Notes under the pieces: generated by a model
Seen by the model: only the letters and a program-made list of their open reading frames with translations
Told to the model about the DNA's origin: nothing
Database searches by the model: none
Virus record (IMG/VR): IMGVR_UViG_3300042562_001017
Coordinates: 1 to 64,000 of that record
Direction: 5' to 3' (one strand)
From: a virus
Length of the DNA: 64,000 nucleotides
Made by a program: the position numbers and the translations under genes
Part shown: in pieces, positions 30,762 to 52,062 of the stretch
How the letters are laid out: the number at the start of each line of letters is the position of its first letter
How positions within the stretch are numbered: the first letter of the stretch is position 1

Positions 30762-32210
30762 ATGGCACAATTTCTAACAGACCAAGTGTGGAATGAACAA
30801 ATGAAAAGCAATGATGCTTCTTTCGCTCGTTTAATTAACTCACAACCTGACAAAATCGCTCCTGTACTCACACATATGATGGGTCAAGAGAGTTCACGTT
30901 TCCCTCTTATGTACCTTTCTGAAGGTATGCAAGCTATTCAAGAAGTAGATGGTGACGAATTCGAGTATGATGTAATTGGACGTATGATGAAAGCAGTTCC
31001 TTTACAAGCTCCTCCTACTGGTTCTTATTCTACATCTTTCGGTGTATCTGGAACTGAAGCAACTTTATTCTTCAACGAAGGTATTTTCCCTGTAGGATAT
31101 ACTATTCTTTCTCCTTTAGGTTATCAATTACGTATTACTAGTAGAGATAACGCTAACGGTAACTGGGCTTACAAAGTAAAATTAGTAGCTAAAAATCTTT
31201 CTGAAACTTTACCTGCAAGTGAATTAGCAACTGGTGCGTTATACGCTTCTGGTTGGAACTCGGTAGCAAGTTTTGGTTCATTCGGTTCACTTTCTACTAG
31301 CACTGCTCCTGTTAAAGTACGTGGTGATGTAGGTACTATTCGTAAAGGTTACGCTTATGAAGGTAACATTAAGTATCGTAAAGCTAAAACTGTACAATTA
31401 GACACTAAAGGTGGAGGTACTAAAGAAATGTATTGGCCTTACGAAGAGTATCAGCATAACTTAAGTTTCCGTATTGAATGTGAAACTAACTACTGGTATT
31501 CAAAATCTAATCGTGATGCTTATGGTGTTATCAATGAGCGTGACGAACAAGGTAATCCTATTGTAAGGGGTTCAGGTATGTTTGAGCAAATCTCTAATAA
31601 AGATACTTATGGTACTTTAACTGCTGATAAAATTGACCAAACAATTCGTGATACTTTCTACGGTATGAGTGATGCTGAAAATAAAGTAATTACTCTTTTC
31701 ACTGGTGTGGGTGGACGTATGGCTTTTGATAATGCAATGAAAGCTGAATTGTCAAATAGAGGTTACATCAAGTTAACTGACAACAAATTCGTTGGTGGTT
31801 CTGGATATAACTTGAGCTTAGGTGGTTTCTTTGATACATATCAACATGTTGATGGTTACAAAGTTATTATCAAAACTGCTTCTCTTTTTGATAACGGACC
31901 TCAAGCTTTAGCCAGTCCTAAACATCCTAACTATCCTAACTTACCTCTTGAGTCTTTCCGTATGGCTTTCACAGATACTTCTACTTATGATGGTATGAGT
32001 AACTTAGTTATGGTAAGCAAAAAAGGACGTAGTATGTTACGTGGTATGGTAAAAGGTATCAACGAAGCTGCTTCTGGAACTAGTTTCTCAGCTAATGATA
32101 CTATTTCTACTGATAAAGACGGTAGTTCAGTACATTTCTTAAAAGCTGGTCAAGTTGTACTTAGAAGGTTTAACACTTCTATCGACTTAACTTGTACAGC
32201 AGGTTTATAG
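30762..32210 (+). CDS. Major capsid protein
   Basis: The 482-residue protein sits after portal and scaffold-like genes and before a strong terminator. It uses CGT for arginine, while neighbours mostly use AGA, a sign of very high expression. The sequence (start MAQFLTDQVWNEQMKSND) and the mixed strand-helix content with a long N-terminal arm fit an HK97-fold crAss-like capsid protein. It should form the icosahedral shell. Confidence 0.78.
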   Translation: MAQFLTDQVWNEQMKSNDASFARLINSQPDKIAPVLTHMMGQESSRFPLMYLSEGMQAIQEVDGDEFEYDVIGRMMKAVPLQAPPTGSYSTSFGVSGTEATLFFNEGIFPVGYTILSPLGYQLRITSRDNANGNWAYKVKLVAKNLSETLPASELATGALYASGWNSVASFGSFGSLSTSTAPVKVRGDVGTIRKGYAYEGNIKYRKAKTVQLDTKGGGTKEMYWPYEEYQHNLSFRIECETNYWYSKSNRDAYGVINERDEQGNPIVRGSGMFEQISNKDTYGTLTADKIDQTIRDTFYGMSDAENKVITLFTGVGGRMAFDNAMKAELSNRGYIKLTDNKFVGGSGYNLSLGGFFDTYQHVDGYKVIIKTASLFDNGPQALASPKHPNYPNLPLESFRMAFTDTSTYDGMSNLVMVSKKGRSMLRGMVKGINEAASGTSFSANDTISTDKDGSSVHFLKAGQVVLRRFNTSIDLTCTAGL

Positions 32211-41265: not shown

Positions 41266-42078
41266 ATGAATAATACAGATAAAATAGGACTAAGATTTAA
41301 CAGATTAGTTATTGTTGAATTAGCAGGGAAAGATAAGTTTGGCAAAACTTTGTATAAATGCCTGTGCGACTGCGGAAATTATAATATTACAAATATTAGT
41401 CAGCTAAGAAGTGGTAAGACTGGAAGTTGCGGATGCTATCATAGAGAAAGGATTTCAGAAAGTAAAAAGAAAGATTTGACAGGATTTTCTAATAATAGAT
41501 TAACTGTCATAAAATTATCTTCTGAAAAAAAATCTAGCAATCAAATGTGGATATGCAAATGCGAGTGCGGCAACGAAGTGATTGTGAAAGGTGCTAGCAT
41601 AGCAAATGGGAATACAAAATCTTGCGGATGTTTAAGTATTGAAAAAATAATAGAAAGAAACACAACGCATGGCAAAAGCAGCACTGATGAAGCCAAGGTT
41701 TGGTATAGAATTAGAAAAAGATGCTTAAACCCAAAAGACTATAATTATAATAGATACGGTGGCAGAGGAATAAAAATATGCGATAGGTGGTTAAATAGTT
41801 TTGAAAATTTTTTATCTGATATGGGCAAAAGACCAACTTCAAAACACAGTATAGATAGGATAGATAATAATGGGGATTATGAGCCAAATAATTGCAGGTG
41901 GGCAACAAGACTTGAGCAAGCTAATAATACCTCAAAATGTGTAGAGATTATGCATAAAGAAACTGGTGTTTTTTATACATCAATTAATGCAGCTTCTAGA
42001 GCATTTAATCTGCCTAAAGGTTTTCTGGATGACCAATTAAGAAAAAGAAATAAAAATAGTAAATTTGTAAAATTATGA
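41266..42078 (+). CDS. HNH endonuclease with two zinc-binding repeats
   Basis: Two cysteine repeats (CLCDCGN with SCGC, residues 32-57; CKCECGN with SCGC, 98-122) precede an HNH nuclease core: [22 protein letters not shown], then His194, Asp197-Arg198, Asp200-Asn201 and EPNNCRW (residues ~206-212). All core residues are present. Such free-standing HNH enzymes spread as homing elements between phages. I chose ATG 41266 over a TTG inside its own promoter. Confidence 0.78.
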
Positions 42079-42252: not shown

Positions 42253-42999
42253 ATGAAGAACTTACCTAAAGAAGAACTTTTAAGCCGACTAGAAGCAATT
42301 AATCGCAGCAATGCTATTATTTACTTTGACTTGAACGGATTTATTCTTGGCGTCAATGCAATCTTTTTGAAGGCTATGGGCTTTCAAGAAGACGAACACG
42401 ATAAGCTAATTGGCAAACATCACTCTATCTTTGTTGACTATAAGTATAGCAAATCGGAAGAATATGTAAAGTTTTGGGAGGTTCTAAGAAGCGGAAAGTT
42501 CTTCGAAGGAGAGTTTGAAAGGAAAAAGATTGATGGTAGTCCAATTTATTTGCAGGCTACTTACAACCCAATCTTTGATGAAGACGGAAACATCACTAAA
42601 ATAATGAAGATTGCAACCGATATTTCTCAGATGGTTGTAAGTAAAAAAAAGATTGATGAATTATCCGCTAATCTACAAGCAGAATTAGAAAATTCAAACA
42701 AGCTAAAAGAAGCTATTGAGATAGAAAAGGATGCAGCTTTAAACGACCTAGACGCAAGTATTAAGAAAAGCCAAAACGAACTGATTAAAGTGATTGTGAA
42801 AAGTGCTTTATTTGTCATTATGAGCGTAGGCTTCATTACAACTATCATGTATTCCTTTGCTATTCTTTCAAACAAAGATACTCAGATAATCGGCTCAACT
42901 TGGAGTAATATGTTTAGTGTTTTATTGACAAACGCATTCTCAATAGTTGGAACTATTATGGGTATTAAATACGCAACCTCAGATAATCAAACTAAATAA
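42253..42999 (+). CDS. PAS-domain membrane protein, possible regulated holin
   Basis: Residues ~10-127 of 248 form a PAS domain like that of aerotaxis or McpB-type receptors: IIYFDLNGFILGVN, GKHHSIFVDY, FWEVLRSGKFFEGEFERK, YLQATYNPI and ATDIS. A coiled coil (128-178) leads to two hydrophobic helices (about 182-206 and 216-240) with a short polar end. No kinase or chemotaxis output is present. It lies just before the M15 endolysin, so the helices could serve as holin or lysis regulator with a sensory lid. This is inference. Confidence 0.7.
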   Translation: MKNLPKEELLSRLEAINRSNAIIYFDLNGFILGVNAIFLKAMGFQEDEHDKLIGKHHSIFVDYKYSKSEEYVKFWEVLRSGKFFEGEFERKKIDGSPIYLQATYNPIFDEDGNITKIMKIATDISQMVVSKKKIDELSANLQAELENSNKLKEAIEIEKDAALNDLDASIKKSQNELIKVIVKSALFVIMSVGFITTIMYSFAILSNKDTQIIGSTWSNMFSVLLTNAFSIVGTIMGIKYATSDNQTK

Positions 43000-43006
43000 A
43001 TAAACT

Positions 43007-43471
43007 ATGCAATTAAGTACTAATCTTTCATTAGCCGAAGTTACAAGAAGCGAAACCGCTAAACGTAAAGGAATTAGTAATATGCCAACTCCTGAGCATA
43101 TTGAGAACTTTAAGAAGTTAGCTGCAAATATATTCCAACCAATTAGAGAACACTTTGGCAAACCTATTATAATCAGTTCAGGTTATAGAAGCGCAGAGTT
43201 AAACAAGGCTATCAGTGGAAGTTTGTCCAGCCAACATTGCTCAGGTGAAGCGATTGATATTGATATGGATGGAACGGACATTACCAACAAGCAAATCTTT
43301 GATTACATTAAAGACAACTTAAATTTTGACCAAATGATTTGGGAATTTGGAACAGATGCTAATCCTGATTGGGTTCACGTTTCTTTTGCTGCAAATAGGT
43401 CACAACGTAAACAAATATTAGTTGCTAAAAAGGTAAATGGAAAAACCACCTACACTCCTTACGTTAAATAA
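43007..43471 (+). CDS. M15-family peptidase endolysin
   Basis: The 154-residue protein has the Peptidase_M15_3 pattern: IIISSGYRS, then SSQHCSGEAIDID with His77 and Asp84, and WVHVSF with His124 as the third zinc ligand. Such enzymes cut the peptide stems of peptidoglycan. There is no signal peptide, so a holin should release it. The gene is 7 nt after the PAS gene and shares its composition. Confidence 0.82.
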   Translation: MQLSTNLSLAEVTRSETAKRKGISNMPTPEHIENFKKLAANIFQPIREHFGKPIIISSGYRSAELNKAISGSLSSQHCSGEAIDIDMDGTDITNKQIFDYIKDNLNFDQMIWEFGTDANPDWVHVSFAANRSQRKQILVAKKVNGKTTYTPYVK

Positions 43472-43472
43472 A

Positions 43473-43748
43473 ATGGCTGAAGCTAAGTTGACTGTTATAG
43501 ATAGAATGAAGATATGGGCATTCCCTGTGAGTATGTCCATTATATCTTTTTACCTTTTTGCTACATTTAAAAAATTAGATGAGGTGCATGCTGATGTTCA
43601 TGCAGTAAAGATTTCTATAGAAGTGCTTAAAAAGGATATAGATTATTCTAAAGCTACTGTTAGTGACCATGAACAAAGACTTAGAGGTTTAGAAAAATCA
43701 ACATCAGTAGATAATACTAGAGTAAACTATGAAGCTTATAACAATTAA
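43473..43748 (+). CDS. Small single-helix membrane protein (91 aa), lysis-linked
   Basis: ATG at 43473 was chosen because a longer frame would start inside the endolysin. Residues ~13-32 are hydrophobic (IWAFPVSMSIISFYLFATF) and the rest is charged, with a coiled-coil tendency. Size and place next to the endolysin fit a lysis accessory or holin-associated protein. Confidence 0.55.
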   Translation: MAEAKLTVIDRMKIWAFPVSMSIISFYLFATFKKLDEVHADVHAVKISIEVLKKDIDYSKATVSDHEQRLRGLEKSTSVDNTRVNYEAYNN

Positions 43749-43769: not shown

Positions 43770-44201
43770 ATGAAATACTTAATTTTACTTTTAGTAATTA
43801 TCTTTTGTTCAGCTGTAATGGACACAACAAATTACATTGCAGCTTTTTTAAAAAGAAAAGGCTATCAAAAATTATTTGAATGGTTTAATAGTAATAGCTG
43901 GAAAAACAAATGGCGTTTTTCAGAGTGGCTTCAAAAAATTGGATTAAGTAAGAGGTTAGCTAAATGGCTTGCAGCAGATGTACTTGTTATATTTACTGAT
44001 GGATGGCATTTTTTTAAAGCAATAATGATGGCTTTGATTCAATATATGGTTGCTGTTCTATCTATTGGTAATGTAAATAGCTTTTTGATTTTTATTAACT
44101 TTCCTATTACAAATATTAGCGTTGAAGTATTAGCCTTTATTTTGTTCTTAGTAGGAGGTCAAATATTTAATTTAATTTTTTACAGATTTAGAAGATTATG
44201 A
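43770..44201 (+). CDS. Multi-helix membrane protein (143 aa)
   Basis: At least three hydrophobic stretches are visible (about 1-22, 68-100 and 117-137) around a basic, Trp-rich middle (WFNSNSWKNKWRFSEWLQ). It is in the lysis gene group and its stop overlaps the next start. A holin or envelope role is possible; no known family. Confidence 0.55.
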   Translation: MKYLILLLVIIFCSAVMDTTNYIAAFLKRKGYQKLFEWFNSNSWKNKWRFSEWLQKIGLSKRLAKWLAADVLVIFTDGWHFFKAIMMALIQYMVAVLSIGNVNSFLIFINFPITNISVEVLAFILFLVGGQIFNLIFYRFRRL

Positions 44202-44482
44202 TGCCAAACATTCAAGAGTTTAAATGGATAGAAATGTTTACTGATAGTAAAGGTAGAACAAGTCCAAGTAAAGTATTAGGATTTTTTGGAGGAGTAATTT
44301 CTTTATTAGTATTCTTTATAGCTGCTATGGATGCTATATTTTTTTCTTTAAATGAATTTAGTAATGGTACATTAACAACACTTACTGTTCAAGCATTAGC
44401 TTTATTTACTGCTAGTGGAACATTATTAGGTATTAGACGTTTTACAAAAGATAAAGAAGTATTAGATGAAAAAAACAATTAA
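44198..44482 (+). CDS. Holin candidate (94 aa)
   Basis: Two transmembrane helices (about 27-50 and 62-77) are linked by a short loop, and the C-terminus is charged with a GIRRFTKDKEVLDEK end. This is the class II holin layout. It overlaps genes on both sides. It would form membrane lesions for the cytoplasmic endolysin. Confidence 0.58.
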   Translation: MMPNIQEFKWIEMFTDSKGRTSPSKVLGFFGGVISLLVFFIAAMDAIFFSLNEFSNGTLTTLTVQALALFTASGTLLGIRRFTKDKEVLDEKNN

Positions 44483-44855
44483 AAATTTTAAGATAAAAAA
44501 TATGAGTGTTGATAAAGTATTAAATTTTATATTATTGCTATTTATAGTGTTAATTGTTATTTTTAAAAATAATGAAACAAATAAATTAGAAAAACAAATA
44601 AATGAAATGTCTTTAAAAGAAGACACTTTATTTACTAATTACAATAAGTTATTGAATAATTATGAAACTCATGATTCAGTATTAAATTTATCTATAAATA
44701 ATAGAAAACAAAATGTATATGTTACTAATAAAATAATTTACGAAAATGAAAAAAAAGATATTGTTAACCTTTCTGATTATCACACCGATAGTTTGTTTAA
44801 GTCAAATCTCAAATGGGCTTACGCTAGATACTTCTATTTATTTAACGAAAACTGA
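44466..44855 (+). CDS. Inner-membrane spanin-like protein (129 aa)
   Basis: A single N-terminal membrane helix at about 18-36 is followed by a long polar, coiled-coil-like region. This matches an i-spanin (Rz-type) topology. The final 110 nt overlap the next gene in another frame, a feature of Rz/Rz1 pairs. Confidence 0.5.
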   Translation: MKKTIKNFKIKNMSVDKVLNFILLLFIVLIVIFKNNETNKLEKQINEMSLKEDTLFTNYNKLLNNYETHDSVLNLSINNRKQNVYVTNKIIYENEKKDIVNLSDYHTDSLFKSNLKWAYARYFYLFNEN

Positions 44856-45138
44856 TAAAATTGTAGTTAATCTTATGGCTAAAGAAATTAAACAATTAGA
44901 AAAACAGTCTTTAGGTAAAGATACTATAATCAATGAATTGGTTGAAAGAATCAATTGGAAAGATGTTATGATTAATTCAAATAAGAAAACTATTGCAGAC
45001 TATAATAATAAAACTTCTAAATTAGAAAAAGAAAACGTAAATTTGAAGAATTCAATTATTAAATATAAATCTAGATATAATATTGCATTAACTGTTGCAA
45101 TTATAGAAGGAGTTATATTAACTTTATTATTATTATGA
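44746..45138 (+). CDS. Spanin-like partner with signal and C-terminal membrane helix (130 aa)
   Basis: It starts inside the previous gene. The N-terminus (MKKKILLTFLIITPIVCLSQ) resembles a secretion or lipoprotein signal with a cysteine at 17, though the lipobox is not standard. A coiled coil covers about residues 45-110 and a hydrophobic helix ends the protein. It could span the envelope alone (u-spanin-like) or pair with the previous protein. Confidence 0.5.
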   Translation: MKKKILLTFLIITPIVCLSQISNGLTLDTSIYLTKTDKIVVNLMAKEIKQLEKQSLGKDTIINELVERINWKDVMINSNKKTIADYNNKTSKLEKENVNLKNSIIKYKSRYNIALTVAIIEGVILTLLLL

Positions 45139-45800
45139 CAAAAAACGAAATAGTTTATAATTGGTTAAATTTAATTAAGTCTGGAAGAATATCAGATGAT
45201 TTTACTCCCAGTATAAATCAATTGTCTTTTATAGCTGATTATAAAAGAGCACAATACATACGTCAAGACCAAACTAAAAACTATTTCGATACTGACCAGT
45301 TTTATCAAGATTTAGGTTGCATCAACATGATTAAAGTTGATAAAGCTGAATGTTGTACTATTGGTTTAGATTGTGAAGTCTTAAGAACTGAAGTTAAAAT
45401 TCCAGCTATTATTAGATTAAAAGAAAGATATGGTTTAAAGATATCAGCAGTAGATAGACAAACCAGATTTACTATTGTCTTACCAGAAAGAAGTCCTTTT
45501 TTAGGTAATACTAAATTTCCTCAATTAGGAGTTAAAGTTTATTTTTTAAATGGATATATTTATATTCCTGAAAGTTTTGACATTAGAGCTCTTAATGTAA
45601 GAGCAATATTAGAAAAACCTGAACAAGCTAAAACTTTTATTTGTGATGGTGATGCTTGTTATACTAATGATTCAGATTATCCAATGACAGCAGACATGAT
45701 AGATTTAATTACAAAAGATATAATGAGTAGTGAATTGAATATTTTAACGAGAATGATTCCTGATGAAACAAACGATGGAACCGATAAAATCCAAAGCTAG
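45135..45800 (+). CDS. Ring or neck-type structural protein (221 aa)
   Basis: The N-terminal helical domain (KNEIVYNWLNLIKSGRISDD) and a strand-rich middle with four cysteines resemble small proteins preceding the muzzle gene in crAss-like phages, which form tail ring layers. It overlaps the lysis gene by 4 nt. Family assignment rests mainly on order. Confidence 0.52.
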   Translation: MTKNEIVYNWLNLIKSGRISDDFTPSINQLSFIADYKRAQYIRQDQTKNYFDTDQFYQDLGCINMIKVDKAECCTIGLDCEVLRTEVKIPAIIRLKERYGLKISAVDRQTRFTIVLPERSPFLGNTKFPQLGVKVYFLNGYIYIPESFDIRALNVRAILEKPEQAKTFICDGDACYTNDSDYPMTADMIDLITKDIMSSELNILTRMIPDETNDGTDKIQS

Positions 45801-46291: not shown

Positions 46292-47017
46292 ATGAATTAT
46301 AAAGCTGTTTCTTGCAAACGTGTAATAGATAAAGTATTTGGTGCTTATGGTAATTTACTTTCTCAACATACTGATAGATTAATTGGCGAAAGTATTGTCT
46401 GGGCAGGTGATGCTTTAGAAAGTATTGGTAGTGTAATTAATCTTGAAGACAAAACAGCTTATCTTACTATAACTAATGGTAAGACACCTTTACCTTGTGA
46501 TTTACATTTAATTAAATCTGTAAGCTATAGAGGTCATTGGTTAAGATATGGTTCTCAAACATTTAATTATAATTTACATTGTGATGATTGTATTAATGCT
46601 ACTATAAGTGAATATGATTTTAGCTATACAGTTAATCCTAATTATATTAATACTAATATAGAAGATAACGAAGAGATATGTGTTTTCTATCAAGCTATTC
46701 CTACAGATGAAGAAGGTTATCCTTTAGTTCCAGATAATTTTGCTACAAGTGAATGTATATTTTGGTACATTACTAAACAGTTAATGCTAGGAGGATTTGA
46801 ACATCCTAATAGACAAATTACTTATGAGAAAGCAGAAATGAATTATATTAAACATAGAGGTCAAGCAGAAAATCAATTAGAGATGTTTGATATTCCTAGA
46901 TTTGAAGCATTTGCTAATAGTTGGGCCCGATTAATTCCTAACACTAATGCTGCTAGAGATTTCTTCTATACTAATAGTATTCCTGAAACATTTATCAATC
47001 AAAAATATAGAAGATAA
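46292..47017 (+). CDS. Ring-type tail structural protein (241 aa)
   Basis: The protein has an N-terminal helical part and a strand-rich central section (IKSVSYRGHWLRYGS onward). Size and position directly before the muzzle-like gene match a ring protein of crAss-like tails. Its stop overlaps the muzzle start. Confidence 0.55.
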   Translation: MNYKAVSCKRVIDKVFGAYGNLLSQHTDRLIGESIVWAGDALESIGSVINLEDKTAYLTITNGKTPLPCDLHLIKSVSYRGHWLRYGSQTFNYNLHCDDCINATISEYDFSYTVNPNYINTNIEDNEEICVFYQAIPTDEEGYPLVPDNFATSECIFWYITKQLMLGGFEHPNRQITYEKAEMNYIKHRGQAENQLEMFDIPRFEAFANSWARLIPNTNAARDFFYTNSIPETFINQKYRR

Positions 47018-50000
47018 TGCAACCATTTTTATTAAATACTGAAGGCGACCCTAAGAATCAACCTGATAAAAGTTCAAGATTAAATATAAATGTTAACTTA
47101 ACTTCTGAACTTGGTTCTATTGTAACTGAAGATGGAAACGACCCTTTACATCTATATCCTACTCTTGAAACTTTTACTGCTGTAACTATTGGTAAAATTC
47201 CATTATTAGATGGAAAAACTGTTATATTTTCTTGTGTTCCTGGAAATTCAGTTATTAACAGTCTTAACAGAAGATTGGTTAATGCTGAAATAGGAGTCTT
47301 GTCTACAGATGGAAGTTATAGAGTTTTGTTGCGAGATAATTATCCTGACCCTGCTGCTGGAGATGTTATTGATTTTGGTTGGGATTTAAATACTCAAATT
47401 CAAGGAACATATAAAATCAATTTTGATAATACAATTACTGTTTATTTTGTTGATAATAAGAATCCTATAAGATGTCTAAATATAGATAATCCTAATATAA
47501 ATACTGATAATTTTTATAGAATAGTTAGTACTGTTGAGTTTAATAAATTAAATGTATTAACTCCTTTTACTAATAATATAATAAATTTACAAGAAATAAA
47601 TACTGGTGGAAATTTACCTTCAGGTGTATATTATGCTATAGCTGCTTACGCTGATGAAAATTTTAATGAAACTAATACTTTATTTCCTTCAAATCCTATA
47701 TCTATAGTAGATGAAAACTTTTTAAGTGATGTAAGCCAATATGATGGTTGTGCAGCTAATACTCCTACTTCTAAAAGTTTTACTATATCTATATCTAATG
47801 TTGAAACATCTTTTACTTATTTTAGAATATATATTGTAGCTAAGATAGGTGGTGTATTTACTGTTTATGATTATGATTTTCATGCTATAACTGGTTCTAC
47901 ATTTTCTTTATCAATACCTACTTTAACTAATAAACCTACATCTTCTTTAGATGTATTAGTAAATAAAATTGGTTGGATAGCTAAAACTGTTACTCAAATT
48001 GATAGTCAATTATATATAGGTAATTTAAAAGAAAAAGAAAGAACTAGTTTACAACCTTGGATTAATAATATAGTAGTTAATGCTGATATTGATGAAATAG
48101 GTAATGTAAATAATAGTGATGATTTTCGTAATGAAAAAACTATATATACAGATAGAGTATTTCAATATGATGAAGTGTATGCACTTTATGCAACTGTTTC
48201 TTATGTAGATGGTAGCGAAAGTGAAGCTTATCATATTCCTGGAAGAAGTTCAGCTAATATAGATTTACCCAAATATGCTGGTGGTGTTAAAGCTACAACT
48301 GAAACTATTAGAATTGCAGATTTTGGTTTACCATATGATGTTTGGACATATGATGGTGGTGGAGATGCTGATACTAGTCCAGGTGGAGAAATGACTAATA
48401 TAGATATTAACTCTCAAACTTTTCATGCATTTGATACTTCTTATAATCCATTAGCTAGTACTAACTTAGGATATTGGGAAAATCAAAATGAATTTTATCC
48501 TAATTTAAGTGATTGGGATATTTTAGATTCAGATGGAACAAGTTTAGGTACTTTAAGAAGTACTCATGTTAAACATCATAGAATGCCTAATCCTAAATAT
48601 TTACAAACTGATGGAAATGATACAAGCCAGTATAAAAGATTAGGTTTAGTATTTAGTAATATAAGACTTCCTGAAGAATTAGAAAATGAAATAGTTGCTA
48701 TTAATTTTTACTATGCTAAGAGAAGTAATGAAAACAGATTAGTATTTGGTCAAAGTTTATTATTAAATGATGTATTGTTAGTTAAAGTTAGTGACGACAA
48801 TGCTCCTTTTAGTGATGGTTCAGGTCAATTATCTAACGATACTAGTTATAGTGTAGGAACTACATTATCTATAGCTGATTTTGGTAGTACTGGTACAACT
48901 GAATTTGAATTACCTCTTGCTAAAAGACTTATACTTTCTGAAGATAGATTTAAAGCAGCACCTTTTGATGCTATATCTCAATTAACAAACCCTTCTTCAA
49001 TTTCATATTTAAAACCTATAAAAACTTTAAAAATGAAATTACTTAACTATAATAGTAGTGGAGATGTTTGGTCTAATACTGGAAATTTAAATTATGTAGT
49101 TAAAGCTTATTGGGATGTAGATGATGCTAATGCTGAAATTATGCATTCAACTAATCCTGCTATAGCTTTAAGAAGAACAAAACCTTGTTTAACAATAGAA
49201 AACATACCTAACAATGCTCTTACTGGAGGTGTACCTTTAGCTGATTTTACATTAAAAACTAATCATTATAAAAGTGATAAACATATAATTCTTGAAACTG
49301 AAAATATATTAGATTCTGATGATTTATATCCTAATGGATTTATAGCATATACTTTTAGTGCTGCCCACCCTGGTTTTGAAACTTCTGGTTCTCCTGGTAC
49401 AGAAAGTAATGAGTATAACGAATTAGTTGTATGTAACTTATATAATTATAAAACAGATGTTTATAATTCATTTGATTTTCAAGAATTAGCTTTTACTAAT
49501 AATAGTTTTGCTCTTACTTCTGATGCTTTTGACGGAACAGGTCAATCTACATCTGTAGTTTATGGTGGAGATACTTTTGTTGGTTGGAGTGGTTATAGAG
49601 GTACAAGTGATATTGTTCCTGCTCTTAATTTTGCAACAACTGGTAATACAGCAGGTGAATGGAGAATATTACATAAATACTTAGCTGAAACTATTAACAA
49701 TGTAAACTATAGACATGAAGGTCCTAATCAATATGATATATATTATCCTAAAACAGATATAGTACCTGTATTGAATGTACCTCTTTTACCTAATGGATTT
49801 GGTAATTATTATGGTTACAATACTGATTACACTTCTGTTAATGATTTAAAACAACCTAATATTCATTCTAAAAATTTTATACCTAGTGTTAATTCTTTTC
49901 CTACTAGAATAGCAAGGTCAAGTAAAGATAATCCTGAAGGTATTGTTGATAACTATAGAACATTTTTAGCTAACGAATATACTGATATTGAAAAATCAAA

Positions 50001-51663
50001 AGGTGAAATAGTAAATATTACAAATTATAATAATAGATTAATAATACATCATGAAAATAGTATTAAAGCTACAGCTACAAGAGATAGGATTAAAACTGAT
50101 GAAAGTGAAGCATTTGTTGGAGCAGGCGATTTGTTTGATTATCCTCCAAAAGATTTAATTCTTACTGATAGTGGGTATGGAGGATTACATCACCAATTTG
50201 CTAGTGTTCTTACTCAATACGGTATATTCTATCCAGACGTTAATACTAATAAAATTATATTATTAGCTGATGGATTAAAAATTATATCTGATGAAGGTTT
50301 GTCTATATTTTTTATGAGAAATATAAAATTAAATTTTGAAAACTTTTATAGAAATTTAATATTTAATCTTTGTCCTACTTGGACAGCAGGTACTTATGTA
50401 ACAGGACAAGTTCGTAAATATAATAATGCTTTATGGAATTGTTTAAATACAACAACTGATGTCCCTACTTTTACAAGTACTAATTGGGAAATACTATATA
50501 GTTATGATAATTTTAAATTTAAAGGTAAAGATTCTATATATTATGGATACATAGCTGGATTTGATAATTATTATAAAAGATATTTACTTACTAAAAAAGA
50601 TTTAACTGTAACTGATACTTTTATAGACCAATTTAAAGGTCAATATGATAAAGAAGAAATTGACAACAATTGGTCAATAGGAAATCTTTTTATATATGAA
50701 AATCAATTATATAGAATAACTTCTACTTTATTACCTGATGGTATAGATTTAGGTGGGGGTCATTATGCAGTAGGTGTATACTTTAACGATAAAACTTATT
50801 TTGTTGAAGAAAGATATACAATAGGATATTATCCTGATTTTAAAGGTTGGGCTAGTTATTATAATTTTTATCCTGATAATTATGTAAATAATAATACTCA
50901 ATTTTTTTGGACTAAAGAAAATGTTATGTTTGAACATAATAAAGATGTATTGCTTATTCCTAATAACAATGGGCCCGTACCTTCAATTATTGAACCTGTA
51001 TTTAATAATAATGAACCAGCTAGATTGATATCTAGTCAATGGAAGACTAAAGCTTTAGATACTAGTAATAATGAAGAAGTACTTACTACATTTGATACTG
51101 CTCAAGCTTATAACTCTTATCAACTATCTAAAGAAAATACAATTGTAAATACTGATAATAGTAGAAACTTAGAAGGATATTGGTCACATAATGAATTTAG
51201 AGATAATACTGCTGATAATAATTTAAAAGTAGTTGACAATGATTTATGGTATAGACCTTTTACTAATAACTTAAATCTTAATAAACATTGGACTAAGATT
51301 AAAAAATTAGTAGATTTTTGGTTTGGAGTTAGATTTAAATATTTTACTCATACAGAAGAAGAAGATTTATTAGGTGGTACAAGTGAATTATTGTCACCAT
51401 CTGATTATGCTACTTATATTACTGCTGATTTAAATACCCCTGTAACTTTTAGTGCAGGTGATATATTAAAATTAACTACAAGTACTTTTTCTATATATGT
51501 TAAAGTTATATCTTACAATTCAGGTGTAAATTATTTTATTAAATTATATGAACCTATTGTATTTGGTGGTAATTTTGAATTAACTGAAATAAGTAGAATT
51601 AATAAAAAACCTAAACTGTATTTACTTGATGTAACTAAATTAGTAATTAAAAATATACGATAA
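47017..51663 (+). CDS. Muzzle-like tail protein
   Basis: This 1548-residue, strand-rich protein begins MQPFLLNTEGDPKNQPDKSS, like the crAss-like muzzle (stabilisation) protein that forms the barrel at the tail end. An Ig-like region appears around residues 185-320. A CBM5/12-like repeat (YVTGQVRKYNNALW with a TSTNWE end) is at about 1119-1160. Size, order after ring-type genes and extracellular-type sequence support the call. Confidence 0.65.
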   Translation: MQPFLLNTEGDPKNQPDKSSRLNINVNLTSELGSIVTEDGNDPLHLYPTLETFTAVTIGKIPLLDGKTVIFSCVPGNSVINSLNRRLVNAEIGVLSTDGSYRVLLRDNYPDPAAGDVIDFGWDLNTQIQGTYKINFDNTITVYFVDNKNPIRCLNIDNPNINTDNFYRIVSTVEFNKLNVLTPFTNNIINLQEINTGGNLPSGVYYAIAAYADENFNETNTLFPSNPISIVDENFLSDVSQYDGCAANTPTSKSFTISISNVETSFTYFRIYIVAKIGGVFTVYDYDFHAITGSTFSLSIPTLTNKPTSSLDVLVNKIGWIAKTVTQIDSQLYIGNLKEKERTSLQPWINNIVVNADIDEIGNVNNSDDFRNEKTIYTDRVFQYDEVYALYATVSYVDGSESEAYHIPGRSSANIDLPKYAGGVKATTETIRIADFGLPYDVWTYDGGGDADTSPGGEMTNIDINSQTFHAFDTSYNPLASTNLGYWENQNEFYPNLSDWDILDSDGTSLGTLRSTHVKHHRMPNPKYLQTDGNDTSQYKRLGLVFSNIRLPEELENEIVAINFYYAKRSNENRLVFGQSLLLNDVLLVKVSDDNAPFSDGSGQLSNDTSYSVGTTLSIADFGSTGTTEFELPLAKRLILSEDRFKAAPFDAISQLTNPSSISYLKPIKTLKMKLLNYNSSGDVWSNTGNLNYVVKAYWDVDDANAEIMHSTNPAIALRRTKPCLTIENIPNNALTGGVPLADFTLKTNHYKSDKHIILETENILDSDDLYPNGFIAYTFSAAHPGFETSGSPGTESNEYNELVVCNLYNYKTDVYNSFDFQELAFTNNSFALTSDAFDGTGQSTSVVYGGDTFVGWSGYRGTSDIVPALNFATTGNTAGEWRILHKYLAETINNVNYRHEGPNQYDIYYPKTDIVPVLNVPLLPNGFGNYYGYNTDYTSVNDLKQPNIHSKNFIPSVNSFPTRIARSSKDNPEGIVDNYRTFLANEYTDIEKSKGEIVNITNYNNRLIIHHENSIKATATRDRIKTDESEAFVGAGDLFDYPPKDLILTDSGYGGLHHQFASVLTQYGIFYPDVNTNKIILLADGLKIISDEGLSIFFMRNIKLNFENFYRNLIFNLCPTWTAGTYVTGQVRKYNNALWNCLNTTTDVPTFTSTNWEILYSYDNFKFKGKDSIYYGYIAGFDNYYKRYLLTKKDLTVTDTFIDQFKGQYDKEEIDNNWSIGNLFIYENQLYRITSTLLPDGIDLGGGHYAVGVYFNDKTYFVEERYTIGYYPDFKGWASYYNFYPDNYVNNNTQFFWTKENVMFEHNKDVLLIPNNNGPVPSIIEPVFNNNEPARLISSQWKTKALDTSNNEEVLTTFDTAQAYNSYQLSKENTIVNTDNSRNLEGYWSHNEFRDNTADNNLKVVDNDLWYRPFTNNLNLNKHWTKIKKLVDFWFGVRFKYFTHTEEEDLLGGTSELLSPSDYATYITADLNTPVTFSAGDILKLTTSTFSIYVKVISYNSGVNYFIKLYEPIVFGGNFELTEISRINKKPKLYLLDVTKLVIKNIR

Positions 51664-51681: not shown

Positions 51682-52062
51682 ATGATGCTTAATATTAAAA
51701 AATCTGAATCTAGATATAGTGTTCCTCAATTAGTAGCTGAATTATTAGAATCAGTAACTATTATACATAAATTTCATTTAGTATCTAAATCTTATTCTGA
51801 GCATAAAGCTTTAGGAGGATTTTATGAAGAGATAGCAGGTTTTGCAGATTCTTTATTTGAAACATTTGCTTGGAGAAATAACTCAATAGAAATACCTCGT
51901 CCTACTTTAACAGATGTTAATGCAATAAGTTATTTAGAAAAATTAGCTAACTTTGTAGAAAATGCTAGAATGGTTACAACTTTTTCTGATTTACAAAATC
52001 AAATGGATGAAGTTAAAACATTAATTTACAGCACATTGTACAAACTTAAAAACTTAAAATAA
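51682..52062 (+). CDS. Small helical virion-associated protein (126 aa)
   Basis: Predicted all-helical with several Leu/Ala runs and no motif. It sits between the muzzle-like gene and the 808-aa gene, 18 nt after the former. Two adjacent ATGs (51682 and 51685) are possible starts. Possibly a cargo or tail component. Confidence 0.5.
   Translation: MMLNIKKSESRYSVPQLVAELLESVTIIHKFHLVSKSYSEHKALGGFYEEIAGFADSLFETFAWRNNSIEIPRPTLTDVNAISYLEKLANFVENARMVTTFSDLQNQMDEVKTLIYSTLYKLKNLK

Follow-up and report, generated by a model that had tools for sequence, protein, structure and literature searches.

A phage-only two-transmembrane module with PAS, GAF or kinase-receiver inputs and its linkage to phage lysis genes

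We describe a PAS-coiled coil-two-transmembrane (TM) protein, encoded in a 64,000-nucleotide stretch of viral DNA (the window), whose membrane portion is a phage-only module. Proteins of this architecture occupy the lysis cassettes of many phages, beside at least four endolysin types, and a tie between the sensor-membrane protein and lysis is therefore very likely. In other phages the same module is fused to a GAF domain, or follows a histidine kinase and a stand-alone receiver in one operon; the sensor parts (PAS, GAF, kinase and receiver) are ordinary families. The broadest reading of the system as a whole, to which we give an even chance, is that phages of aquatic bacteria possess a signal-transduction control of lysis of their own, in which the phage-only effector, fed by flavin-type PAS or GAF domains or by a kinase-receiver relay, would make lysis depend on the measured redox or energy status of the host cell.

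Architecture and genomic setting of the window protein

The window forms part of an 81,085-base virus record of a crAss-like phage, and encodes a Crassvirus major capsid protein (30762-32207, E=1.7e-58) and the crAss ring proteins 1 (46292-47014, 5e-43) and 2 (45135-45800, 1.8e-28). A DUF5856 protein (51682-52059, E=3.8e-16) is encoded between a large ORF (47017-51663) and the next ORF. A first-pass annotation had picked out a single ORF (Table 1) joining a PAS domain, a coiled coil and two membrane helices, without kinase or chemotaxis output and 7 nt from the gene of an M15 endolysin lacking a signal peptide; it had proposed a structure prediction and a search for PAS plus two-helix proteins beside endolysins as checks, and both were run. 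All of these points held. Profile searches recovered PAS_9 over residues 22-126 (E=5e-11) and TIGR00229 (8e-12), with PAS_3 also over its cut-off, and the Kyte-Doolittle maxima fall at residues 177-195 and 220-238. The AlphaFold2 model, of moderate confidence (mean pLDDT 74), contains the PAS domain, which matches those of MmoS and NifL, an 82-residue helix (125-206) entering TM1, and TM2 at 210-243. Domain searches of the 248 residues detected neither a kinase nor an MCP domain, nor an output domain of any other kind, and the chain stops after TM2. The positive charges predict that both termini of the two-TM module lie inside (N-in/C-in); the PAS domain would therefore be cytosolic, its helix leading directly into TM1. 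The gap to the endolysin ORF is indeed 7 nt, and the N-terminus of the endolysin is not hydrophobic.

The genes that follow the endolysin in the window include several small membrane proteins (Table 1). The 143-aa protein shares 32-35% identity with a 112-aa two-TM protein encoded 3' of the Phage_holin_4_1 gene in the loci L001-L008. The two overlapping ORFs, which match the Rz-like spanin family phrog_9841 weakly (E=0.2), are arranged in the manner of nested or overlapping spanin genes. Directly upstream of the lysis genes lies an HNH endonuclease (41266-42078; phrog_374, E=1.8e-84), possibly a homing gene.

Table 1. Features of the window protein and of the genes that follow it, in window coordinates
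Feature	Coordinates	Strand	Basis
PAS-coiled coil-two-TM protein, 248 aa	42253..42999	+	ORF present; 153 viral relatives
PAS domain, about residues 20-126	42310..42630	+	Profile matches
His57	42421-42423	+	Equals FAD-contact His of Aer/AerC
Trp75	42475-42477	+	Equals FAD-contact Trp of Aer/AerC
Coiled-coil signalling helix, residues 127-180, running on into TM1 in the model	42631..42792	+	AlphaFold2
TM helix 1, about residues 181-204	42793..42864	+	Hydropathy, AlphaFold2, charge topology
33 invariant residues TQIIGSTWSNMFSVLLTNAFSIVGTIMGIKYAT (T210-T242), short outer loop and TM helix 2	42880..42978	+	Identity among relatives
M15 peptidase endolysin, 154 aa, without signal peptide	43007..43471	+	Peptidase_M15_3 1.1e-20; PHROG 894 'endolysin' 3.4e-41
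Small one-TM coiled-coil protein, about 91 aa from ATG 43473	43473..43748	+	Weak PHROG matches only
143-aa protein, three predicted TM segments, candidate holin	43770..44201	+	Gene map
Hydrophobic protein of 94 aa with two TM segments as judged by eye, candidate holin/antiholin	44198..44482	+	Without family match
Two overlapping ORFs (44466-44855 and 44746-45138) in different frames, coiled coil and TM, putative spanins	44466..45138	+	

Distribution of the module

Scans of IMG/VR with two different queries returned 179 and 203 relatives. The architecture is kept in 153 viral relatives of the window protein, in which a single PAS domain (about 248 aa in total) or a tandem of them (about 370 aa) precedes a shared coiled coil and pair of TM helices. 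The carriers are hundreds of environmental phage contigs, some above 300 kb; the 430120-base viral contig IMGVR_UViG_3300034116_002156 holds both the module and a window-like PAS domain (L491, L508), and the system thus reaches the largest phages. Two scans of 84,980 bacterial and archaeal genomes recovered no relative of the module (three pattern matches gave no module ORF), and on these scans a bacterial origin of the module was rejected.

Among the isolate phages of INPHARED we found no carrier of the effector, nor any match to the effector or receiver of the second form described below. The only matches in INPHARED were to a bacterial chemoreceptor with tandem PAS domains under a wrong label, to two Listeria-labelled records without annotation, and to one sequence at chance level. 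The first of these, in the 'Bacteriophage sp.' record MT836939.1 (656-2683), is a methyl-accepting chemotaxis protein with tandem PAS domains and has a GGDEF/EAL protein next to it, and the record is probably bacterial DNA mislabelled as phage.

Sequence constraint on the module

The first two scans yielded 154 PAS-type proteins, counting that of the window; the stretch TQIIGSTWSNMFSVLLTNAFSIVGTIMGIKYAT was identical in every one of them and was encoded by 96 distinct DNA versions. In representatives, identical amino acids shared their codon in 44-52% of cases, where codon usage alone would give 41-48%. Synonymous sites are thus near saturation, which rules out a mobile or recently spread gene. 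Ascertainment bias was reduced by scanning IMG/VR with a DNA pattern for GSTWSNMF only, so that the residues downstream were free to vary; the 33 residues of the PAS type still came in just two versions, found in 125 and 3 of the 128 distinct proteins among the matches listed. Compared across one and the same set of phage pairs, the module is 84% identical, the GH19 endolysins 63% and the neighbouring holin-like proteins 38-39%. More divergent versions of the module, for example ILESTWSNLFGILLTNSFSIIGTIMGVKYA, occur in the second form.

In TM2 the Ser, Thr, Asn and Gly residues lie inside a 140-degree arc (polar-arc test, shuffle fraction 0.004), and the helix contains a GxxxG motif. The polar arc is consistent with either helix packing or pore lining; taken alone, the hydrophobic moment of TM2 did not reach significance (shuffle fraction 0.07-0.10). 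An invariant stretch of 33 residues speaks for a single target, and offers a clean handle for experiments.

Linkage to lysis genes

Gene maps of the loci were built with a simple gene caller of our own and HMMs for the M15, GH19, GH24 and PG-binding-linked classes of endolysin. For the PAS type, identical effector proteins were collapsed and five or more genes were required on each side. Among the matches listed, an endolysin lies within five genes in 68 of the 72 distinct loci with full flanks, these loci not being phylogenetically independent; the possibility that homologues are never beside lysis genes, raised in the first-pass annotation as what would speak against its proposal, clearly fails, and the link to lysis that it had suggested is very likely. 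By gene offset, again among the matches listed, endolysins occupy 135 of the 909 slots at offsets 1-4 and none of the 1138 at offsets 5-12. This confinement, together with the retention of the architecture in the 153 relatives, indicates that the arrangement in the window is not due to chance. The adjoining endolysins are of the M15, GH19, GH24 and PG-binding types and the gene orders differ, which argues against a single inherited block. In 80% of cases no more than 30 nt separate the gene from the next lysis gene, and its surroundings often include Phage_holin_4_1 proteins (PF05105), small two-TM proteins and spanin-like proteins.

The lysis cassettes of related phages contained some further proteins. 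Probable unimolecular spanins, with a lipobox-like Cys near the N-terminus and a C-terminal TM segment, are encoded at L001:5022-5402, L045:9373-9840 and L024:3147-3611. A conserved cassette protein of 196-290 aa (L135:7418-8227, L098:4344-4934, L127, L141), in some cases with PG_binding_1 and without a Pfam catalytic domain, possibly represents an undescribed endolysin catalytic domain.

Kinase-receiver and GAF forms of the system

Among the matches listed, about half of those to the GSTWSNMF pattern were not PAS proteins. The largest such group, which we term EGN, comprises proteins of about 190-230 aa with a small N-terminal domain bearing an [LV]EGN motif; the coiled coil and the module come next, as in the PAS type (AlphaFold2 pLDDT 83). 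A PDB search with the EGN model gave no significant match, and one effector of this second type matched phrog_1544, a family of unknown function (E=4e-4). Directly upstream of the EGN effector lie genes for a stand-alone receiver (PF00072, 1.4e-8) and a histidine kinase (HATPase_c, 1e-13), the HATPase_c and Response_reg matches exceeding their cut-offs. The kinases carry PAS and sometimes GAF sensors, and share a conserved H-box, LRHDMHSG; the receivers conserve the Asp, Ser and Lys phosphorylation motifs. One such kinase, of 709 aa (L174:7596-9722), combines a GAF with two PAS domains. Gaps within the kinase-receiver-effector operon never exceed 30 nt, and among the matches listed the receiver and effector genes share 1 or 4 nt at 105 of 134 loci. 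At 83 distinct second-type loci with enough upstream sequence among the matches listed, a receiver was present in 82 and a kinase in 81, in a group to which the automatic label had wrongly assigned the GAF fusion L250. For the PAS type the corresponding number, for kinase or receiver and likewise among the matches listed, is 0 of 109 distinct loci, and neither HATPase nor receiver was detected in the whole 81,085-base record of the window. At these loci the one-chain and relay forms are thus mutually exclusive.

In a third form (L423-L425) a GAF domain is fused directly to the module, without kinase or receiver; a GH19 gene is close by in two of these loci and a two-TM holin-like gene adjoins in the third. 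Several similarities connect the forms. The window PAS domain shows about 57% identity to the best kinase PAS versus 44-45% to that of a bacterial tandem-PAS AerC/BdlA-like chemoreceptor, and the fused GAF domain reaches 64% identity to sequences on kinase-type contigs, where the kinase of L174 has a GAF domain. When a fused protein serves as the query, kinases are recovered by its N-terminal half, and EGN effectors on those same contigs by its C-terminal half (e.g. 3300042868_008555: L463/L513). The one-chain PAS and GAF forms and the three-gene form hence seem to be related by fusion, and phages seem to drive the same effector either by a three-gene relay or by a one-chain shortcut.

The kinase-receiver form is less strictly tied to lysis genes: an endolysin lies within five genes in 31 of 60 distinct loci among the matches listed, and this loose linkage suggests that the effector may have another role. 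Directly 3' of one kinase-receiver-effector operon we noted an M15 endolysin ORF with an additional N-terminal stretch (L190:5041-5658).

The signal read by the PAS domain

A PDB profile search with the window PAS domain placed MmoS, NifL and Aer first, all of them FAD redox sensors. In the alignment to Aer, for which the flavin-contact residues are known (PMC9668731), His57 corresponds to Aer His53 and Trp75 to the F-alpha Trp, and both are kept in 224 of 224 alignable fused PAS domains. The Trp is the main determinant of FAD binding in PAS domains, while the His is common to the Aer and AerC clusters and the Asn to the NifL and Aer clusters (PMC10468136, the AerC cluster being identified from the discussion of that paper). 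The Asn85 and Arg115 of the Aer type are replaced by Arg90 and Ala121 in all 227 of 227 domains, which excludes Aer's own type; the AerC-like cluster needs no Asn. Among the kinase PAS domains, 27 of 107 have the Aer-type Asn and Arg. AerC itself serves aerotaxis from the cytosol and binds FAD weakly through a pair of PAS domains (PMC13401364).

Given the retained AerC-type Trp and His and the FAD sensors among the closest solved relatives, FAD is likely to be the cofactor of window-type PAS domains; the two residues are what is expected of FAD binders, short of proof. Heme is less likely, since heme PAS domains require a His of their own (PMC10468136) and the closest relatives are all FAD proteins. 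A PAS domain devoid of any cofactor is possible. Of the inputs proposed in the first-pass annotation (oxygen, redox, light or a ligand), it is redox that the FAD signature would favour.

Regulator or holin

The same annotation had called the membrane part holin-like, and this was not supported. The window protein matched no holin family in Pfam, PHROG or NCBIfam. By eye the two-TM part could plausibly be kin to the 94-aa protein or to the neighbouring holins; hhalign gave probabilities of only 0.9-5.8% (h2tm 5.8%, holin4 0.9%), the HMM match to the 94-aa ORF had E=2.4, and such kinship was rejected. Homology of the membrane part to a receptor, which the annotation had named as the other thing that would speak against it, holds by half: the nearest relatives of the PAS portion are AerC/BdlA-like chemoreceptors and phage kinases, and the membrane portion resembles nothing known.

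Class II holins have two TM helices with N-in/C-in topology, and both traits are predicted for the window protein, which is, however, not the sole holin candidate of its cassette. One might thus suppose that the module is itself a holin or pinholin, with the sensor gating a small membrane hole or depolarising the membrane. Besides the topology, the frequent position of the gene immediately 5' of the endolysin agrees with this, as do the polar face of TM2 (tighter than 99.6% of shuffles) with its GxxxG motif, and the 15 of 93 endolysin-bearing cassettes in which the other small TM proteins are all single-TM. We nevertheless consider it unlikely: 64 of those 93 cassettes encode a recognised holin and the remainder other small TM proteins, no homology to holins is detectable, and the module stays at 84% identity where holin candidates diverge to 38-39%. 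As a separate holin is usually present and a true holin is not expected to be invariant, a regulator, whether antiholin-like or a trigger, is more likely on the present comparisons.

The invariance of TM2 on all sides would also suit contact with a conserved partner, and the module could act, under the sensor, on some membrane protein of the host that is itself conserved (one of respiration, secretion, motility or cell-wall synthesis, for instance), its lysis neighbourhood reflecting late co-expression and not control of a holin. The kinase-receiver form, often away from lysis genes, fits such an idea. It becomes improbable in the face of the strict placement of PAS-form endolysins, of four types, at offsets 1-4, and of the GAF form, which is in lysis neighbourhoods too. 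PAS domains can function without a cofactor, and two of the four flavin contacts of Aer are replaced here, so one may also conceive of the PAS as a vestigial or ligand-free dimerisation domain in a structural lysis accessory; with PAS, tandem PAS, GAF and a two-component relay interchanging while the effector is kept, and with His57 and Trp75 invariant, we regard this as very improbable.

Proposed mechanism and relation to known systems

We propose, with somewhat better than even confidence, that the window protein represents, in a single chain, a phage-specific system linking a cytosolic sensor to an inner-membrane effector, which at lysis would regulate a separate holin. The PAS domain, probably with FAD as in AerC and Aer, would read out redox or respiration in the infected cell. 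We infer that the signal runs outward to the membrane and acts on lysis: a change at FAD would shift the coiled-coil helix and, through it, TM1, thereby resetting the nearly invariant N-in/C-in module, which would permit, delay or trigger the holin step that frees the endolysin encoded alongside. In the sister phages a phage histidine kinase with PAS and GAF sensors and the stand-alone receiver would drive the same effector, the receiver presumably acting on the short N-terminal domain of the EGN protein. The triggering of holins is coupled to membrane energy, and lysis inhibition breaks down under energy poisons (PMC7182436); a reading of energy or redox state would hence be a sensible input.

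The sensor half resembles the AerC/BdlA-like cytosolic chemoreceptors and Aer in having single or tandem PAS domains with the flavin Trp and His and a coiled-coil helix thereafter (about 44% identity to a tandem-PAS MCP), but it lacks a HAMP or MCP domain, has the two-TM module as its output and is encoded by phages in the lysis cassette. Holin-antiholin control, including the lysis inhibition of T4 and ICP1 (T/RI, TeaA/ArrA; PMC7182436), likewise involves lysis membrane proteins, is sensitive to membrane energy and adjusts the time of lysis to conditions. However, superinfection is sensed there by periplasmic or membrane antiholins, whereas here the input to the membrane protein would come from a cytosolic redox-type PAS domain, a GAF domain or a two-component relay; we found no sequence relation. 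Bacterial two-component systems with stand-alone receivers share the PAS/GAF kinase with its conserved His, the Asp, Ser and Lys of the receiver, and the single operon, but the present relay is phage-encoded and its third gene is a membrane module in place of a transcription factor or flagellar motor. The Gram-positive LytST-LrgAB/CidAB systems (PMC3507848) also link an oxygen- and glucose-responsive two-component system to holin-like membrane proteins, but do so in cells, at the level of transcription and with unrelated proteins. The divergent viral receiver discussed in a review of jumbo phages was never found with kinases (PMC7824862). The first-pass annotation knew of no phage holin with a PAS domain, and in the open-access literature we too found no precedent for one, nor for a PAS domain in crAss-like phages or for phage two-component control of lysis.

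Environmental sensing known to control lysis timing is essentially lysis inhibition upon superinfection (PMC7182436), and it is this timing that sets phage yield. The presence in many water-dwelling phages of a sensor-wired membrane protein within the lysis cluster suggests that the energy state of the host may be sensed for the timing of lysis. If this is true, phages would run redox sensing and a phosphorelay of their own to control the host membrane, and the parts would constitute a ready-made redox-to-membrane switch.
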